DNA of 64,000 nt. Source: Cyclobacteriaceae bacterium (lineage in GTDB: Bacteria > Bacteroidota > Bacteroidia > Cytophagales > Cyclobacteriaceae). Under the pieces are notes generated by a model, which saw only the letters and a program-made list of their open reading frames with translations, was not told the origin of the DNA and searched no databases. Within the stretch, counting starts at the first letter, position 1. The number at the start of each line of letters is the position of its first letter. Shown one piece after another: positions 20,785 through 52,112 of the stretch. The position numbers and the translations under genes were made by a program. The stretch covers positions 62,001-126,000 of the forward strand of contig JAPZUF010000010.1 in the NCBI GenBank assembly GCA_027533395.1. The letters are read 5' to 3'.

Positions 20785-20820
20785 AAAGGTTGTTCGGAGG
20801 AACAACCTTTATTTATTTTT
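20785..20820. terminator. Bidirectional Rho-independent terminator
   Basis: Perfect 11-bp stem AAAGGTTGTTC / GAACAACCTTT with loop GGAG, flanked by A-run and T-rich tract. It serves the TerB-like gene (+) and the converging DUF4476 gene (-). Confidence 0.85.
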
Positions 20821-21596
20821 TATCGCTGCGATTTCACATAATCAGTTAATTCTCGAACACGTAACTCACTGATAAAAGCCTTGTTTAATCTGAAGTATTT
20901 ATCTTTTTCAGAACAGAATTTGTAAGCGAATTTGGCAAACTCCAGTTTCTTCATTTCGCTTATAAAAATTTCCATGACCTGTATGATTTGAGCAGTGGTT
21001 AAACACTCTTTGTTAAAAACTTCTTTTGCAACCTTCATTTTAGTTTCTTCACTGATAGGGTCATCAGCCGCTTCTAAAGCTTCTTCAAAATCACTCTCTT
21101 CCATCGGATAACAATTGCTAGATGAATTACTCCAATTATTTTGTGTGTTTTGGTTATTGGTAGACTTTGTACTGGAAATTTCTTCAATAACATCCTCATC
21201 ATTATTCATGTTAACAGTAATAGTATGTTTTTGCGTATTAGAAGAAGTTGTGGTTTGTATAGTTCCATTTTGTATCGTAGTGTTTTGCGTAGCAATAGTT
21301 TGACTATTCGCATTTATAAAGTTTAAAAGTTCTTCTTGCGAAATTTCATTAGATAACGCTTGGACAACTAACCCATAATTGGCTTGATCAAAAGTGTGCA
21401 AATACCCGTACTTAGCTAAATCTAATTGTAAAATACTGTTTTTAATTACTTTTAATAATTCTGCAACTTCAGATGCTAACATGCAATGGTTGTCCATAAA
21501 TTTTTTTGCTTGCATAGAAGTCACTGATCCTAATAAATCTGAAGATGCATCATATTTCAACTTGAGAAAGGCTTGTTTGTTGTTAATTGAGCACAC
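20820..21596 (-). CDS. DUF4476 repeat protein, C-terminal part (separated by frameshift)
   Basis: 258 codons from a GTG (21594-21596), but this start is probably artificial. Two DUF4476-like units are visible: about 1-95 (CSINNKQAFLKLKYD, CMLASEVAELLKVI, LDLAKYGYLHT) and about 165-258 (MEESDFEEALEAADD, CLTTAQIIQVMEIF, LEFAKFAYKFC). An Asn/Thr/Ser-rich linker joins them. No signal peptide. It overlaps the preceding ORF by 40 bp in another frame; that ORF has the signal peptide and linker DUF4476 proteins normally begin with. Removing one TG from CACACA (21592-21597, plus strand) joins both into about 447 residues. Confidence 0.75.
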   Translation of the reverse strand: MCSINNKQAFLKLKYDASSDLLGSVTSMQAKKFMDNHCMLASEVAELLKVIKNSILQLDLAKYGYLHTFDQANYGLVVQALSNEISQEELLNFINANSQTIATQNTTIQNGTIQTTTSSNTQKHTITVNMNNDEDVIEEISSTKSTNNQNTQNNWSNSSSNCYPMEESDFEEALEAADDPISEETKMKVAKEVFNKECLTTAQIIQVMEIFISEMKKLEFAKFAYKFCSEKDKYFRLNKAFISELRVRELTDYVKSQR

Positions 21597-22165
21597 ATTA
21601 ATCCATTTACGACTTGTGGCACTTGATAGCTTGAGCTTTCATTAACTTGCAATACCTTATTAATAGAAGGCAAAGTTCCATTTACTTGAACGACAACACC
21701 AGGATTACCATTTTCATTTGCAACAGCTTTATTGTTGACTGGCTTTTCAGGTTTTGTTGCGTTTGGTAGGGGCTTGTCTTTGCTTGTGCCAATGGAATTT
21801 TCTATATCTTCTATAACAACGGGCGATAAAGTTAGATCGCCAACTTTTTCAAATTTGTAAGGACCTTTAGGCGTTTTTACAATGCGATAAGTAAGTTCAT
21901 GATCAAAACCATCATTAGGTAAAATAACCTCAGCAGTTAGTTCGGGCACACCTTTTTTAACGAAAGAGATCCGAACACGATTTTTTCCTATTTGTAAATT
22001 ATCAGCTCTAACTAAAGCTGCTGCAATATCATTTGCTTTTTGACTGTTAAGGAATAAAATGAAATTTTCTCCACCCGAAGAAACAATTAAACCAGAACCT
22101 GAGTCTTGAGCAGAACTTAAAAAATAGAAGAAGGAGAGAATAAGTGTTAATAGAGTTTTTTGCAT
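21557..22165 (-). CDS. DUF4476 repeat protein, N-terminal part (signal peptide and beta domain)
   Basis: 202 codons; the natural protein likely continues in the next frame into 20820-21596. Signal peptide to about SSAQ (19), a beta-rich domain of about 90 residues with FKK/ITYRIV-like strands, then a low-complexity linker. The frame leaves the family at VNGLMC and ends after 15 unrelated residues. R1, a terminator-ended RNA element, lies upstream at 22337-22467 on the same strand. Confidence 0.75.
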   Translation of the reverse strand: MQKTLLTLILSFFYFLSSAQDSGSGLIVSSGGENFILFLNSQKANDIAAALVRADNLQIGKNRVRISFVKKGVPELTAEVILPNDGFDHELTYRIVKTPKGPYKFEKVGDLTLSPVVIEDIENSIGTSKDKPLPNATKPEKPVNNKAVANENGNPGVVVQVNGTLPSINKVLQVNESSSYQVPQVVNGLMCAQLTTNKPFSS

Positions 22166-22332: not shown

Positions 22333-22393
22333 AATTAAAAACCCGAGCCGGCACTATGCCAACCCGGGCCTTCCTCCCTTATAACTTCTATGT
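22333..22393 (-). ncRNA. Predicted small RNA or attenuator R1
   Basis: A minus-strand -7 box TAAATTTG (22400-22407) is followed by ~25 nt shared with R2 and by an 11-bp GC-rich hairpin with loop ATAGT (22342-22368) and five T. The hairpin pairs fully only on the minus strand, where three positions are G-U; on the plus strand these are A-C clashes. No conserved ORF. Could be a free RNA or a leader attenuator of the DUF4476 gene. Confidence 0.45.
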
Positions 22394-22467
22394 TATAAAC
22401 AAATTTAATTTGAGAATACCTTATGTGTGTATCAATAGAAATTCTTTTTATATAAACTTTCGGTCAA
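22337..22467 (-). repeat. ~130-bp duplicated element, copy R1
   Basis: Strongly similar to 22952-23080 in the same orientation. Both the hairpin end and a ~45-bp far end (ending CTTTCGGTCAA on the plus strand) are conserved, while ~30 bp in the middle are diverged but keep a TAnnTTTG box. Confidence 0.85.
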
Positions 22468-22506
22468 AGCTTTATTATATACATTAGTTTCGACTAATGG
22501 ACCCGC

Positions 22507-22881
22507 TTAATATATTTTTAAAATGTCATGATGATTTACTTTCACTTTTTCGATTTCATCAATACAAGCAAAATAATTAATACAAACTTCTGTTGTAGCG
22601 TTTGTTAAAGCATTGTCGGCATCAGCTTTAGAGTCCCATTCAATTATGTCAATGTATGTTTGATTATCTTTCTTTAAAAGATATCTTTTTTTAAATCCTT
22701 TTCGATTTTGTAAGAATTCTTTTTGTAATCGGTCTGACATCTCAAGAAAGAAAGTTTCATTAATTTCTGTTTTGATGTTAAATTCTGTAATCTCTAAGAT
22801 ACTTGATTGAGATGTTTCGATTTTGTTTTGTTGACATGCACCCAGGCATATCAGCAAGGAAAATAGTGTTATGCTTTTCAT
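22507..22881 (-). CDS. Small lipoprotein with dimeric alpha/beta-barrel-like domain
   Basis: 124 residues. Lipobox ICLGAC gives C16 as the lipidated Cys. The body (ITEFNIKTEINETFFLEMSDRLQKEF split here, then GFKKRYLLKKDN and IIEWDSKADADNAL) follows the ABM-type ferredoxin-like pattern. Most such domains are cytoplasmic monooxygenase-like proteins, so an exported form is odd. The gene lies between R2 upstream and R1 downstream; no promoter box was found between R2 and its start, so it may depend on read-through from R2. Confidence 0.7.
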   Translation of the reverse strand: MKSITLFSLLICLGACQQNKIETSQSSILEITEFNIKTEINETFFLEMSDRLQKEFLQNRKGFKKRYLLKKDNQTYIDIIEWDSKADADNALTNATTEVCINYFACIDEIEKVKVNHHDILKIY

Positions 22882-22947
22882 ATAAAACCGAAATTCTAAT
22901 CACAGAGTGACAATAGTATGTCAGTAATAATATTTAGCATCTACAAA

Positions 22948-23006
22948 ACTTAAAAACCCGAGCCAGCACCATGCCGACCCGGGTTTTCCTCCCTTATAAC
23001 TTCTAT
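22948..23006 (-). ncRNA. Predicted small RNA or attenuator R2
   Basis: Minus-strand box TACCTTTG (23013-23020), then a ~58-nt transcript ending in a 15-bp hairpin with loop ATGGT (22953-22987) and a T-run. Compared with R1, two neighbouring stem pairs differ but stay paired (C-G for U-G, G-U for G-C), which supports a real RNA structure. It lies 67 bp before the small lipoprotein gene on the same strand. Confidence 0.45.
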
Positions 23007-23080
23007 GTGATACAAAGGTAAAGTATCAATATGCCAAGTGTGTATCAATAAAAATTCTTTTTATATAAACTTTCGGTCAA
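22952..23080 (-). repeat. ~130-bp duplicated element, copy R2
   Basis: Direct-orientation partner of R1 (22337-22467); together they bracket the small lipoprotein gene. Confidence 0.85.
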
Positions 23081-23085
23081 TCATA

Positions 23086-23116
23086 AAAAACCCGGCACTT
23101 TTCAGTAACCGGGCAA
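23086..23116 (-). terminator. Terminator of murF-alr
   Basis: CCCGG / CCGGG arms (about 23090-23094 and 23107-23111) around a 12-nt loop; on the minus strand the stem runs into TTTTTT. It lies ~85 bp after the murF-alr stop. Confidence 0.65.
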
Positions 23117-44479: not shown

Positions 44480-47400
44480 ATGAAGTATGTCTTACTTACA
44501 ACTGCTATTGTAATAAGCAGTTTTGCTCTCGCACAGAAAAAAAAATCTAGCCCCATAACACCTGCCGAAACATTTCAACACGAAATGTATAAAGGTTTGA
44601 AATGGAGAAACATTGGTCCATTACGTGGCGGGCGCTCCAACGCGGTAGCGGGGGTACCCAATAACGATCAGCTATATTATGTGGGCTATACCGGAGGAGG
44701 TTTATGGAAAACCGAAGACGGAGGCTTAAGCTGGAAAAGCATCGGTGATGCCTTTCTTAAAACGGGTTCAGTAGGCGATATCGCTGTGGCACCCAGCGAC
44801 CCCAACGTAATTGTAGTGGGCATGGGCGAGCATGCAGTGCGTGGTGTAATGACAACCTATGGCGATGGAGTTTACCTATCTACCGATGCAGGTAAAACCT
44901 GGAAAAATATTGGCTTAGAAAAAACAAGACACATCAGCGATGTTATCATTCATCCTGATAATCCGGAAATTATTTGGGTGGCAGCTCAGGGAACTGTACA
45001 CGGACCCAATACAGAACGAGGTATTTTTAAAACAACCGATGGCGGTAAAAACTGGAAAAAAACTTTATATGTAGATGAAAATACAGGAGCATCTTCTATA
45101 AGCATAGATCCCACAAACTCAAGAATTTTGTTTGCTGCAACCTGGCAACACAGACGCTACCCGTGGAAAGTTGAAAGTGGAGGTACCGGATGTGGTTTAT
45201 GGAAATCAGTTGATGGTGGAGAAACCTGGCAAAGACTAAGCGAAGGCTTACCAAAAGAAATGGGAAAAATTGGCGTTAGTGTTTCAGCTGCTAATCCGCA
45301 ACGGGTGTTTGCCATTGTTGAAGCAGAAAAATCAAAAGCAGGATTATATCGATCTGATGATGGTGGTAAAAAATGGAATCTTCTTTCTAACGATGCTAAC
45401 ATTACCTCGCGTTCGTGGTATTACATGGAAGTAGCAGCCGACCCCAAAAATGCTGATGTCGTGTATGTGTTAAACTCTCCATTAACAAAATCTATTGATG
45501 GGGGTAAAACATTTCAAACCATTCGTGTTGGGCATATCGACACACACGATTTGTGGATTAATCCCAACAACCCACAAAACATGATTTTAGGTGATGATGG
45601 AGGCGCAGAGATTACCTATAACGGAGGCAAAACATGGTCTACACAAATGAACCAACCTACTTCACAACTATATAGAGTAAACGTTGACAATCAATTTCCA
45701 TTTAATGTTTACGGAGGTCAGCAAGACAATTCATCAGTGGTTACCAAAAGCAGAAACAATGGTTTTAGTTTAACAGAACGCGATTGGTTTGAAGGACCAG
45801 GCTGCGAAAGCGCCACCATCGCTTTCAATCCTAACAATCCGCAATTGTTATACGGTGGTTGTTACCAGGGTATTATCAGTGTCTTAGATATTAAAACAGG
45901 GGAGCAAAAAGACATTATGCAATATCCTGCCACCAACTTGGCTTTCAAAGCCAAGGATATGAAACATCGTTTCAATTGGAATGCACCTATTTTGGCATCA
46001 CCTCACAATCCTAAAGTGATTTACCATGCGGGCAATGTTGTGTTTAAATCAACAAACGGTGGAATTAACTGGGAAAAAATTTCTCCTGACCTTACCCGAA
46101 ATGATACTACAAAACAACAAGTAGGTGGCGGACCTTTAACAAACGAAGGTGCCGGTGGGGAAAACTATAATACCATCTATTACCTAATAGAATCTCCACA
46201 TCAACAAGGTGTATTGTATGCAGGAAGCGATTGTGGTCTCATCCATGTAACTATGGATGGCGGCAAAAATTGGCAAAACATTACACCTAAAGATTTGCCT
46301 GAGTCGAGTGTGCACGCTATTGAAGTTTCGCCTCACGACCCGGCAACTGTTTATGTGGCTGCCACCCGTTATAAGTTTAGCGATTACACCAGTTATACCT
46401 ATCGCTCTTCTGATTATGGCAAGACCTGGACAAAAATTAACAATGGCATAGAGGCAGATGATTTTATCAAAGTGATTCGGGAGGATAGAAAAACCAAAGG
46501 CTTATTATATGCAGGCGCTGAAAGAGGATTTTATGTTTCATTTAACGGAGGTAATCAATGGCATAAACTGATGTTGAATTTGCCTGTAGTACCCATTACC
46601 GATTTAGCCATTCAAGGAAATGATTTAGTTGCCTCAACAGCTGGGCGTGCGTTTTGGATTTTAGATGACCTTAGCGCCTTACAACAATCTCAAGGTAAGT
46701 TTACTGAAAGCGTAAAATTATTTTCACCAAAAACCACTGTTCGTTATCCTGGGGTGACTGTTCCCGCAGAAGCACAGCCGATAGCTGGACAAAATCCAAT
46801 GGATGGTGTAATCCTAGATTATTATATCAAAGATAAAGCAGACACAGCGAATCTAACGTTAGAGATATATAATCAGGAAGGAAAATTGATAAGAAAATAC
46901 AGCAATAAAAAAGATGAAAACTTCAAAGGATTTCCGGGTGGACCGCCAGCACCACAACTTTTACCGGCTGAAGCGGGCATTAATCGTTTTGCGTGGGATC
47001 TGAGAAGTGAAACATTGTTACCTATCAACAATGCATTCGTCTATGGCGATTATCGTGGACATAGAGTTGCGCCTGGCAAATACAGAGCTGTACTAAAACA
47101 CAAAGGAATAACAAGCGAAGTAATGTGCGAATTAATAGCAGACCCCAACTTAAAAGTAACAGCTAGCGACTGGAATGAACAACAGCAATTTTTAAATGAC
47201 GTTGCACAACAGATTGAAAAAATTCATCAAGCTGTTAACAACATGCGTCAGGTGAAAAAACAAATTGAAGCTCAACAAGAAGTATTGAAACAAAGTAAAG
47301 AAGCTGCAACCTTATTGGATGCAGGAAAAGCATTGATAAAAAAGATTGATAGTTGGGAAAGTGAAGTAGTAGAAAGCAGACAGAAGAATTTTCAGGATGT

Positions 47401-47626
47401 AATTAATTATGCCAGCAAACTAAATGTAGAATTTTTTGCACTCCGTGGCGCTGCCGATGTGCACGACCCACGCCTCACGCAAGGTGTAAAAGATCGCTAC
47501 GCTGATTTGCTGACGCAATGGCAAAAGGCAGAAACCAAACAAAAACAAATTGTTAAAGAAGATATAAAAGCTTATAACGATTTGTTTAAAAAATTAAACT
47601 TAGATGCCTTAGTGGTGAAAGAATAA
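44480..47626 (+). CDS. VPS10/BNR-repeat (sortilin-like) exported protein
   Basis: 1048 residues. Signal peptide to FALAQ (19). The first ~700 residues hold many Asp-box turns of the form SxDGGxTW: KTEDGGLSW, STDAGKTW, KTTDGGKNW, KSVDGGETW, RSDDGGKKW, TMDGGKNW, RSSDYGKTW. This is the ten-bladed VPS10/sortilin propeller. A C-terminal ~300 residues includes a helical coiled stretch (about 905-960). Bacterial members are called glycosyl hydrolases or sortilin-like proteins without a proven reaction. Confidence 0.9.
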   Translation: MKYVLLTTAIVISSFALAQKKKSSPITPAETFQHEMYKGLKWRNIGPLRGGRSNAVAGVPNNDQLYYVGYTGGGLWKTEDGGLSWKSIGDAFLKTGSVGDIAVAPSDPNVIVVGMGEHAVRGVMTTYGDGVYLSTDAGKTWKNIGLEKTRHISDVIIHPDNPEIIWVAAQGTVHGPNTERGIFKTTDGGKNWKKTLYVDENTGASSISIDPTNSRILFAATWQHRRYPWKVESGGTGCGLWKSVDGGETWQRLSEGLPKEMGKIGVSVSAANPQRVFAIVEAEKSKAGLYRSDDGGKKWNLLSNDANITSRSWYYMEVAADPKNADVVYVLNSPLTKSIDGGKTFQTIRVGHIDTHDLWINPNNPQNMILGDDGGAEITYNGGKTWSTQMNQPTSQLYRVNVDNQFPFNVYGGQQDNSSVVTKSRNNGFSLTERDWFEGPGCESATIAFNPNNPQLLYGGCYQGIISVLDIKTGEQKDIMQYPATNLAFKAKDMKHRFNWNAPILASPHNPKVIYHAGNVVFKSTNGGINWEKISPDLTRNDTTKQQVGGGPLTNEGAGGENYNTIYYLIESPHQQGVLYAGSDCGLIHVTMDGGKNWQNITPKDLPESSVHAIEVSPHDPATVYVAATRYKFSDYTSYTYRSSDYGKTWTKINNGIEADDFIKVIREDRKTKGLLYAGAERGFYVSFNGGNQWHKLMLNLPVVPITDLAIQGNDLVASTAGRAFWILDDLSALQQSQGKFTESVKLFSPKTTVRYPGVTVPAEAQPIAGQNPMDGVILDYYIKDKADTANLTLEIYNQEGKLIRKYSNKKDENFKGFPGGPPAPQLLPAEAGINRFAWDLRSETLLPINNAFVYGDYRGHRVAPGKYRAVLKHKGITSEVMCELIADPNLKVTASDWNEQQQFLNDVAQQIEKIHQAVNNMRQVKKQIEAQQEVLKQSKEAATLLDAGKALIKKIDSWESEVVESRQKNFQDVINYASKLNVEFFALRGAADVHDPRLTQGVKDRYADLLTQWQKAETKQKQIVKEDIKAYNDLFKKLNLDALVVKE

Positions 47627-49142: not shown

Positions 49143-52112
49143 CTAATTATTTTTCTTTTTAAACAAACTCTGAATTTTCTTCGCAGCTTCTTCTTTTACT
49201 TTAGTGGCTGGATCAGCTTTTTTCGTTGTATCTCCAGGTTTCTTCTCTCCGCCTAAAACATTGTTGATTAGTTTTTCTGCTTCTTTGCTCTTAACTAACT
49301 CAGTAGCTTTTTTCGCAGCTTCATCTTTAATGGCATTTGTGGCTGCCTCTTTTACTTGTTGTTTTTGTTCGCTCATTAACAATTTTGTTTGTGGGTTGGC
49401 ATAATTGCCACCAATGCCAATAGTAACAGGAACCGGTTTGTTAGGATCTGTATTGCTGCCTGTATATTGATTCACAAAACCTGTTAATTGAGAACTAACT
49501 TTATTGGCAGGCACATTCATTTTTAATTGATAATCCAGCGAGCCATCTAATCCACTAGAACCCGCTACAGTTGTTTTGTAACTTCCGATGCTTACATCAA
49601 ATGGTTTAACTGTAAGTTTTCCATCTTTAATAGTAGCCGACATGATAACATCTTTTAATGTTACTTCGCTGGTGTTATCTAGTTTTGTAAGGGAGGTAAC
49701 GCCTGCGATAATTTTCGAATCTTTCAAGGCAGCTTGCGCCACTTTAATTAATCCGGCTGCATTAACGGTAGCCATGTTGGGCATCATTTGTTGGGTAAGC
49801 TCTCCATTAATTTTAAAATCGGTTGAGAAATTTCCATTTACCAAGCCTGCAATTGGTGCATACGTTTTAATGATGCTGAAGGAATTAGCCGCTTGTTGAA
49901 TGTTTAGTTTATCAATCTTTAAGGCAAGATCATATTTAGGATGTTTGATATCTTTTGCAGAGTAGGCGCCATCTACACCAAACTGTCCGCCTAATAAATT
50001 AAATCCTACACCTTTTAAATTGGCAACACCATCTTTCAGCACCACATCACCTTTTGCATTGCTTAGTGTATAATCCATCATTTTTACAGTCTTTATATTG
50101 GAGCGTAAAATGAAATCTATATTTTCAGGAATAGGAATCACACCAAAAGATGCAGTATCTATTTCTGTTGCTGTGCTTTCTGTTTCCGTCATAAATTCAT
50201 TTAAGTCGAGTAAATTCGAATTAAAATCAAGTGAACCTTTGATTACTTCTTTCTCGCTTAGTACATAACCTAGGTAGTTGCTTACATTTCCTTTTACACT
50301 GAAATCACTTTTGCCAATCGTTCCGCTCGTATTGCTTAATTCAATCTGTTTAGGATTAAATGTTAATGTTGATTGTGCGATTGTAACTTGATAAGGCAAA
50401 TCTTTGGAAGCAAAACTAAAGTTGGCGAGCGAAGCATTACCAGACGTTGGCAGTTTATCGTATCTACCGGCTTCCAAATCGCTCATCTTACCTTGAGTGC
50501 GTACATCTGCTTTTACTTTTCCTGCAAGTGTCATGCCTTCTAAAGGAAATATTTTCGTGATCTTTTCTAAATCGATACCACCTTTTGCAGCTACATCCCA
50601 GGTATAATTTTCAAGGTTTTGAAGGAGCATATTGGCGGTAAAAGTTTCGCCATCCATTTTTAAATTCAAATCGTTTACTTTAATGGTGGTTTCGGCCATT
50701 TTACCTGAGGTATTAACAACACCTGCTTGTAATTTCAAATCTTCAATAGGTATCGGAAATTCGGCCGACTTAACATATCCATTGCTAAGTGCCATTTGTG
50801 CATCAATGGCAGGAATTATATTCTTAACGCTATCATATATGCCTTTGGCTTTTAGATTAAGCGAATACAAACCTTTCAATTCTAATCCATCTATCGGAAA
50901 CATTTTGGTGAGTTCTCCTAGATTCAATTTGGCCGCAACGTTAGCATCAATCGGATAATTGCGCAGGTTTTCAACTAACAAAGTGGCATCGAAAGGATTC
51001 GAACCAAAATCCATGTGAAACTTTTTAATGTTGATGAGTGTGTTTTCAATTACGCCATCTTTGTTATCGACCAACATATCTACATTAATGTTATTGACAG
51101 CCGTTGGTAAATCAGGATATTTAAACATAGCGTCTTTCACCAATAAGTTGACTTGGTAGGCTGGCATTTGTGTATCGCTGAATGTTCCTTTTACAAAACC
51201 ATTAAATGCTAAATCTCCGTTTGTTTCAATGTTGGAGAAAGAAGAAGAATACATACCCGGCACAAGCGACAACAAACTTTTAAATGAGTTATCCGGACTG
51301 CTGAATGAAATATCCATTCCGAAATCATTTTCATTCATCTTAAACCAACCATCAAAAGCCATAGCGAAGTCGTTTACTTTCGCTTTGTTTTCTTTAAAAG
51401 TATATTTGGTATAACCTTCACTAATCTGAATGATGGCATCGATTTCAACTTGCTTGTTTGTCAGCAACTCCATACCATCGAACGAAGTTGTAACGGTATC
51501 TGCTTTGGTGTAGGTTTTTAAATCAAATACATCCTGATTAAAATTTCCGCTTCCGTTGTGGTTTAATCCTTTTAACGTTAAGGTATAAGGCAAAGTAGCA
51601 TCGTTGTATGTTACTTCTCCATCAGAAACTTCCCAACTATCAATACCAAAAGAAAAAGCGGTGGCTTCTTCGGTTGTTTGCGTTGTGGTATCCGTTGATG
51701 GCATGGCGATGTCGTAATTAGCACGACCATCAGCTAAAACCTGAACATTAACGATAGGGTGAACTACACTTATGCTTTTTACTTTTAGCTGGTCGCCAAA
51801 AATAAGGTCTCCTAGGTTTACAGCTACACCAATTTTTTCGGTAGCGAATAAAACAGTTCCAGCAAAGGGCTCGCGGTTGATTACACCTAACTCTCCTAAT
51901 TCGACTGTCAGGTTAGGGAAGTTTTTAAATAAACTAATATTAAGTTGATCGATGTTGTAGGTAACATCGGCATTAACGGCATTGGCTAATTCTTTATCAA
52001 TAGCGGCTTTAATATCATCTTTAAAAACAATAGGAATGATGATAGCAGCGGCAACGATGAGTGCTAAAAGACTACCCAAAACGATGAGCGTCCATTTGAT
52101 CATTTTTTTCAT
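49143..52112 (-). CDS. AsmA-family envelope protein
   Basis: 989 residues. One N-terminal membrane helix (about 5-30) and a very long periplasmic beta-rich body: early ELANAVNADVTYNIDQLNIS (AsmA opening) and late AGLIKVAQAALKDSKIIAG, typical of AsmA/TamB relatives that form hydrophobic grooves for lipid transfer between membranes. The tail (about 925-989) is Lys/Glu-rich and helical. Role in outer-membrane lipid supply is inferred from the family. Confidence 0.88.
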   Translation of the reverse strand: MKKMIKWTLIVLGSLLALIVAAAIIIPIVFKDDIKAAIDKELANAVNADVTYNIDQLNISLFKNFPNLTVELGELGVINREPFAGTVLFATEKIGVAVNLGDLIFGDQLKVKSISVVHPIVNVQVLADGRANYDIAMPSTDTTTQTTEEATAFSFGIDSWEVSDGEVTYNDATLPYTLTLKGLNHNGSGNFNQDVFDLKTYTKADTVTTSFDGMELLTNKQVEIDAIIQISEGYTKYTFKENKAKVNDFAMAFDGWFKMNENDFGMDISFSSPDNSFKSLLSLVPGMYSSSFSNIETNGDLAFNGFVKGTFSDTQMPAYQVNLLVKDAMFKYPDLPTAVNNINVDMLVDNKDGVIENTLINIKKFHMDFGSNPFDATLLVENLRNYPIDANVAAKLNLGELTKMFPIDGLELKGLYSLNLKAKGIYDSVKNIIPAIDAQMALSNGYVKSAEFPIPIEDLKLQAGVVNTSGKMAETTIKVNDLNLKMDGETFTANMLLQNLENYTWDVAAKGGIDLEKITKIFPLEGMTLAGKVKADVRTQGKMSDLEAGRYDKLPTSGNASLANFSFASKDLPYQVTIAQSTLTFNPKQIELSNTSGTIGKSDFSVKGNVSNYLGYVLSEKEVIKGSLDFNSNLLDLNEFMTETESTATEIDTASFGVIPIPENIDFILRSNIKTVKMMDYTLSNAKGDVVLKDGVANLKGVGFNLLGGQFGVDGAYSAKDIKHPKYDLALKIDKLNIQQAANSFSIIKTYAPIAGLVNGNFSTDFKINGELTQQMMPNMATVNAAGLIKVAQAALKDSKIIAGVTSLTKLDNTSEVTLKDVIMSATIKDGKLTVKPFDVSIGSYKTTVAGSSGLDGSLDYQLKMNVPANKVSSQLTGFVNQYTGSNTDPNKPVPVTIGIGGNYANPQTKLLMSEQKQQVKEAATNAIKDEAAKKATELVKSKEAEKLINNVLGGEKKPGDTTKKADPATKVKEEAAKKIQSLFKKKNN

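Follow-up and report, generated by a model that had tools for sequence, protein, structure and literature searches.

Good maps of the small RNAs of Bacteroidota exist, to our knowledge, for just a small number of genera, e.g. Bacteroides and Flavobacterium. The FopS family of B. thetaiotaomicron comprises 14 paralogues with a single-stranded conserved 5' seed, a Rho-independent terminator and a canonical promoter, which repress translation near start codons and bind an RRM-1 protein (PMC11697453). In the FopS/GibS family, the RRM-1 protein bound is RbpB, and susC-like mRNAs are repressed (PMC11697453). GibS of Bacteroides thetaiotaomicron is 145 nt long, contains two middle hairpins and has a non-canonical promoter, PM2 (PMC7366714). 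Rfp18 of Flavobacterium psychrophilum is described as strongly folded and pairs via its third stem-loop (PMC9723704).

Here, we analysed 64,000 nucleotides from a Cyclobacteriaceae bacterium (assembly GCA_027533395.1, contig JAPZUF010000010.1, positions 62,001 to 126,000), a stretch referred to as the window, which contains two copies of an intergenic element, R1 and R2. Judged from their sequence, R1 and R2 are probably paralogous genes for one trans-acting, base-pairing small RNA (sRNA). The predicted RNA resembles FopS in having a conserved single-stranded 5' seed followed by a terminator and in occurring as several paralogues, but there are 2 copies rather than 14 and no Rfam match. Homology to FopS was dismissed, as the seed matched the published R1/R1' consensus GTGTTTTTCATAGTATTAGATTTAAGGTTAACAAA no better than shuffled sequences (fractions of 0.67 and 0.10 of the shuffles reached the same match). 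With GibS, the RNA shares the unstructured conserved 5' seed, the intrinsic terminator and the intergenic location, while its length of ~57-60 nt and its TAnnTTTG box set it apart. Rfp18 is comparable as an independent intergenic sRNA of Bacteroidota with conservation at the genus level; in the R1/R2 RNA, however, it is the 5' end, which is unfolded, that is conserved. The candidate thus comes from another branch of the Bacteroidota, the Cytophagales, where the paralogous design of a 5' seed plus a terminator would have been reached independently. The genome also codes for an RRM_1 protein of 84 aa (PF00076, E 3.1e-21; L212:12578-12832, plus strand, contig C32), a protein of the same kind as the sRNA-binding RbpB of Bacteroides; a link of it to the R1/R2 RNA would be hypothetical.

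Organisation of the two copies

R1 and R2 lie on the minus strand in direct orientation and are 84% identical over 131 bp (E 3.4e-34), at the coordinates given in the preliminary description of this DNA, and a whole-genome search returned these two copies and no others. The units, their parts and their neighbours, all on the minus strand, are as follows.

22952..23080, minus strand: R2, whole promoter-sRNA-terminator unit; one of the two genome copies, with ends taken from the three-copy alignment
23039..23080, minus strand: conserved upstream block of R2, 42 bp, AT-rich, with the palindrome ATAAAAA-GAA-TTTTTAT; 40-41/42 identical to the other copies; candidate activator site or UP element
23013..23020, minus strand: -7 box of R2, TACCTTTG (TAnnTTTG); 6/6 fixed letters shared by the three copies, next to a spacer that has diverged
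22986..23012, minus strand: 5' part of the R2 RNA, single-stranded, presumed pairing region; 26-27/27 identical in three copies and unpaired in the ensemble
22952..22988, minus strand: intrinsic terminator hairpin and T-run of R2, from folding, a terminator scan and stem-pair comparison
22337..22467, minus strand: R1, whole promoter-sRNA-terminator unit; second copy, 84% identity
22426..22467, minus strand: conserved upstream block of R1; 41/42 identical to R2
22400..22407, minus strand: -7 box of R1, TAAATTTG, from the three-copy alignment
22371..22397, minus strand: 5' part of the R1 RNA, presumed pairing region, from conservation; GGGAG free of pairing, beginning of the stretch folded into a hairpin of R1 only
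22337..22373, minus strand: intrinsic terminator hairpin and T-run of R1, from folding and stem-pair comparison
23091..23114, minus strand: hairpin resembling a terminator, located between murF-alr and R2; seen by reading the sequence, unlisted in the consensus scan
22507..22881, minus strand: gene of a 124-aa lipoprotein after R2, a neighbour outside the unit; not found after murF-alr in genome G001 (see below)
20820..22165, minus strand: DUF4476-type gene after R1, in two frames by frame comparison, a neighbour outside the unit

The boxes (22407-22400 in R1 and 23020-23013 in R2), the shared stretch ending GGGAGGAA (26/27 identical between R1 and R2) and the near-identical region upstream of the box (41/42 bp) are thus present as originally noted. 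Each copy appears to carry its own sigma-A promoter of the TAnnTTTG type, from which we infer a transcription start ~5 nt past the box in R2. The upstream block had been proposed as an activator site; this may be so, although its sequence agrees equally well with an AT-rich, UP-like element. In either case, this partly palindromic block would set or control the strength of the sigma-A promoter. The block was rejected as a regulon motif, since the own genome holds no other site with up to 2 mismatches and sites with 3 mismatches occur at about the frequency of the backward control. The only other near match, with 2 mismatches to GAAAGTTTATATAAAAAGA of the block, lies at G001:C25:84146-84164 and may reflect the same control or chance.

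Distribution and conservation

A third copy (L003; 88% identity to R2) was found in a genome of the same genus (G001) and was the only true further copy in 59 related genomes. An exact 16-mer scan of ~85,000 species genomes returned one true copy (L059, JAJTEH010000030.1, Flammeovirgaceae bacterium isolate 49625_E12), which is identical to the copy of G001 across 1560 bp and represents the same contig; 55 further 16-mer matches in this pattern scan were set aside as chance. A covariance search with a copy count, the check suggested in the preliminary description, was run over 391 family genomes with a model of the RNA part and added the G001 copy and no others; the three copies scored 95-97 bits, and nothing else exceeded 36 bits. 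Weak matches occurred in G268 (36 bits), G137 and G074 (32 bits) and G238 (30 bits), and at lower scores; the ones we inspected were either terminators that follow other genes or stretches lacking the promoter and the seed. The element is missing from 3 of the 5 genomes examined in the genus, and no copy was found in plasmid, phage and viral collections. No family of Rfam 15 reached its gathering cut-off, in agreement with the initial failure to recognise a named RNA class. Judged from these searches, the distribution is narrow and lineage-restricted.

The alignment of the three copies (R1, R2 and L003, from two species) revealed a marked alternation of conserved and diverged segments. The upstream block is identical at 39-41/42 positions, the RNA 5' part at 26-27/27 and the hairpin at 24-27/29, and the six fixed letters of the TAnnTTTG box are kept in all three copies, whereas only 4-8/18 positions (22-44%) are identical in the promoter spacer between block and box; the similarity stops at the T-run. 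Between R2 and the G001 copy, the conserved parts are identical at 94/98 positions and the spacer at 5/18. As an approximate baseline, since R2 and L003 are unproven orthologues, four-fold sites of the two genomes are 40% identical in murF-alr (87/217) and the adjacent gene (13/32), i.e. at about the level of the spacer, and ~72% identical in two other genes, a baseline that fails to explain 94/98 (binomial 3e-9). Since the spacer has diverged while block, box, RNA and terminator were kept, the copies are, on the evidence of this alignment, old and held by selection as one unit. The preliminary description had left the choice between a duplicated small RNA and a transcription attenuator; the third copy, in which block, box, RNA and terminator are retained and the spacer is randomised, comes from a related species and speaks for the former.

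Fold of the predicted RNA

On the minus strand, hairpin and T-run fold with -31.0 kcal/mol (z -7.2) in R1 and -25.8 kcal/mol (z -5.0) in R2, compared to -16.1 and -12.4 kcal/mol, respectively, and no T-run on the plus strand, which bears out that the hairpin is readable only on the minus strand. The terminator of R2 has the longest stem in the region according to the terminator scan. The G-U pairs noted in the stem are present. Over the three copies, 12/16 stem pairs are invariant, 4/16 vary on one side and none on both; the varying pairs between R1 and R2 are two central stem pairs and two at the A/G-U base, and all of them remain paired. The observation that two stem pairs differ between the copies and stay paired therefore stands, but the changes are not compensatory, as all are one-sided G-U/G-C exchanges. 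Homologues without compensatory changes, named beforehand as an argument against the element, are formally what we found, in a comparison that has no power with three near-identical RNAs.

The terminator is preceded by the invariant, purine-rich 5' stretch ACAUAGAAGUUAUAAGGGAGGAA, which is mostly unstructured and, in the ensemble fold, single-stranded in R2 and L003. A 5' hairpin in R1 was rejected as a conserved feature because it needs an A replacing a C and is broken in R2 and L003. A conserved small open reading frame was likewise rejected, as the ATG in the loop of R2 is absent from R1 and L003. We propose that an RNA of ~57-60 nt is transcribed from the minus strand and ends at the intrinsic terminator, the hairpin of which would protect the 3' end, and that ACAUAGAAGUUAUAAGGGAGGAA pairs with mRNAs, probably near start codons, so that their translation or stability would be altered. 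The transcription, the start site and the base-pairing mechanism are what we infer from these parts. With a 23-nt invariant seed and a 42-bp promoter block, both the targets and the regulator of the sRNA are directly testable.

Gene neighbourhood and the attenuator alternative

The order of genes in the window is murF-alr, R2, lipoprotein gene, R1, DUF4476 gene, and the element of G001 is flanked by a sortilin/VPS10-like gene and the gene of a T9SS-sorted BNR-like protein. In all three cases, a co-directional exported-protein gene begins 70-170 nt downstream. This arrangement, with promoter and terminator in the right order, could also be that of a cis-acting leader, i.e. a promoter with a transcription attenuator that allows read-through into the exported-protein gene upon a signal. 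We regard this alternative as unlikely. An attenuator calls for an antiterminator, and the best pairing of the 5' stretch with the stem arms has -7 kcal/mol, whereas the terminator reaches -26 to -31 kcal/mol. The three downstream genes (lipoprotein, DUF4476-type and T9SS-sorted BNR-like) are unrelated and non-orthologous, and R2 is cut off from the upstream gene by the hairpin at 23091..23114, which makes it an independent unit. In addition, a promoter-like box, TACTATTG, with 5/6 of the fixed TAnnTTTG letters, precedes the ATG of the lipoprotein gene by 30 nt, so that the initial statement that no other promoter is visible for this gene was too strong. Leader RNAs such as the L20_leader of Rfam are similar in that a gene is preceded by a promoter, a short leader and an intrinsic terminator, but R1 and R2 have neither an alternative fold nor a constant downstream gene, and their L20_leader score of 18.4 bits is below the cut-off (58.7); the riboswitch and leader families of Rfam gave no match at gathering score. 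Judged by sequence, the three copies, beside three gene sets, are independent of their neighbours in having their own promoter and terminator, and an element that is constant next to neighbours that are not favours a trans-acting RNA.

With regard to the neighbouring genes themselves, R1 does precede the DUF4476 gene as reported, but this gene is broken, with halves in different frames (21557-22165 and 20820-21596) and a frameshift or assembly error near 21515-21596. A homologue in the same-genus genome G004 is a single uninterrupted frame of 449 codons. The lipoprotein encoded at 22507-22881 (minus strand) gave a weak Pfam match (E 1.6e-4, below the cut-off) to CTD10 of ABC-three-component systems; its only relative within the genus is found in G004 (27% identity).

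Candidate targets and the decoy alternative

For the preferred reading of a base-pairing sRNA, potential targets were searched in 57% of the genome (2.05 Mb, window included), which provided 1630 start-codon windows. The best 50 duplexes were somewhat stronger than those of shuffled sequences, their strength being reached by 1/38 mononucleotide and 3/90 dinucleotide shuffles. A search for near-perfect targets, with up to 3 mismatches over 22 nt, returned none. Genes with hydrophobic N-termini were over-represented among the best duplexes, an effect for which dinucleotide shuffles account in large part; accordingly, a seed preference for signal-peptide genes, reached by 0/38 mononucleotide but 13/90 dinucleotide shuffles, was dropped as mostly explained. 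The most attractive single site, 13 nt complementary to the seed within codons 4-8 of a DacB-like lipoprotein gene of the own genome, was also discarded, as the orthologue in G001 has lost this pairing (-17.5 vs -8.4 kcal/mol). Overall, target prediction yielded weak, non-conserved leads. It is conceivable, if quite improbable, that the purine-rich seed AAGGGAGGAAA complements the first codons of signal-peptide genes, which are rich in pyrimidines, and that the sRNA acts as a broad translation regulator of exported proteins, analogous to but independent of FopS.

In G001, 13 nt near the start of the gene of an exported Kre9/KNH-like protein (MRLFSSLILL...; about codons 3-8; L138, C3:103076-103088) are an exact complement of the sRNA stretch, which makes this gene a possible target; a counterpart of it was not found in the searched 57% of the own genome.

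The stretch ending GGGAGGAA might act without pairing to mRNAs, as a decoy that captures, for example, an RNA-binding protein (with an RRM or of another type) or the anti-Shine-Dalgarno end of 16S rRNA. We consider this very unlikely: the invariant stretch leaves a GGAGG core single-stranded and the genome does encode an RRM_1 protein, but each RNA has one short motif, whereas known sponge RNAs carry several, and the 23 invariant nucleotides exceed the length that such a motif needs.

Synteny and divergence between the two species

Neither the element nor the lipoprotein gene is found after murF-alr in G001, and no element is found in the window after the VPS10-like gene, which ends near 47620; synteny breaks at both places. 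As a further alternative, the element might be a small repeat, mobile or recombinational in nature, with promoter and terminator on it by chance; this is very unlikely. Direct copies with sharp ends, at different sites in two species and with synteny breaks at both, would suit it, but MITE-like repeats are recognised by terminal inverted repeats, target-site duplications and multiple near-identical copies, whereas no such inverted repeats or duplications were seen in the three copies and their flanks, there are only 1 or 2 copies per genome, and a recent hop would not yield a randomised spacer between functional parts that are kept.

Apart from the element, the window differs in its divergence from G001 along its length. 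The AsmA-like (49146-52112) and VPS10-like (45260-47620) genes have 95-98% protein identity to G001 and ~72% identity at four-fold sites, compared to 77% and 40%, respectively, for murF-alr. This mosaic pattern suggests gene exchange between the two species.
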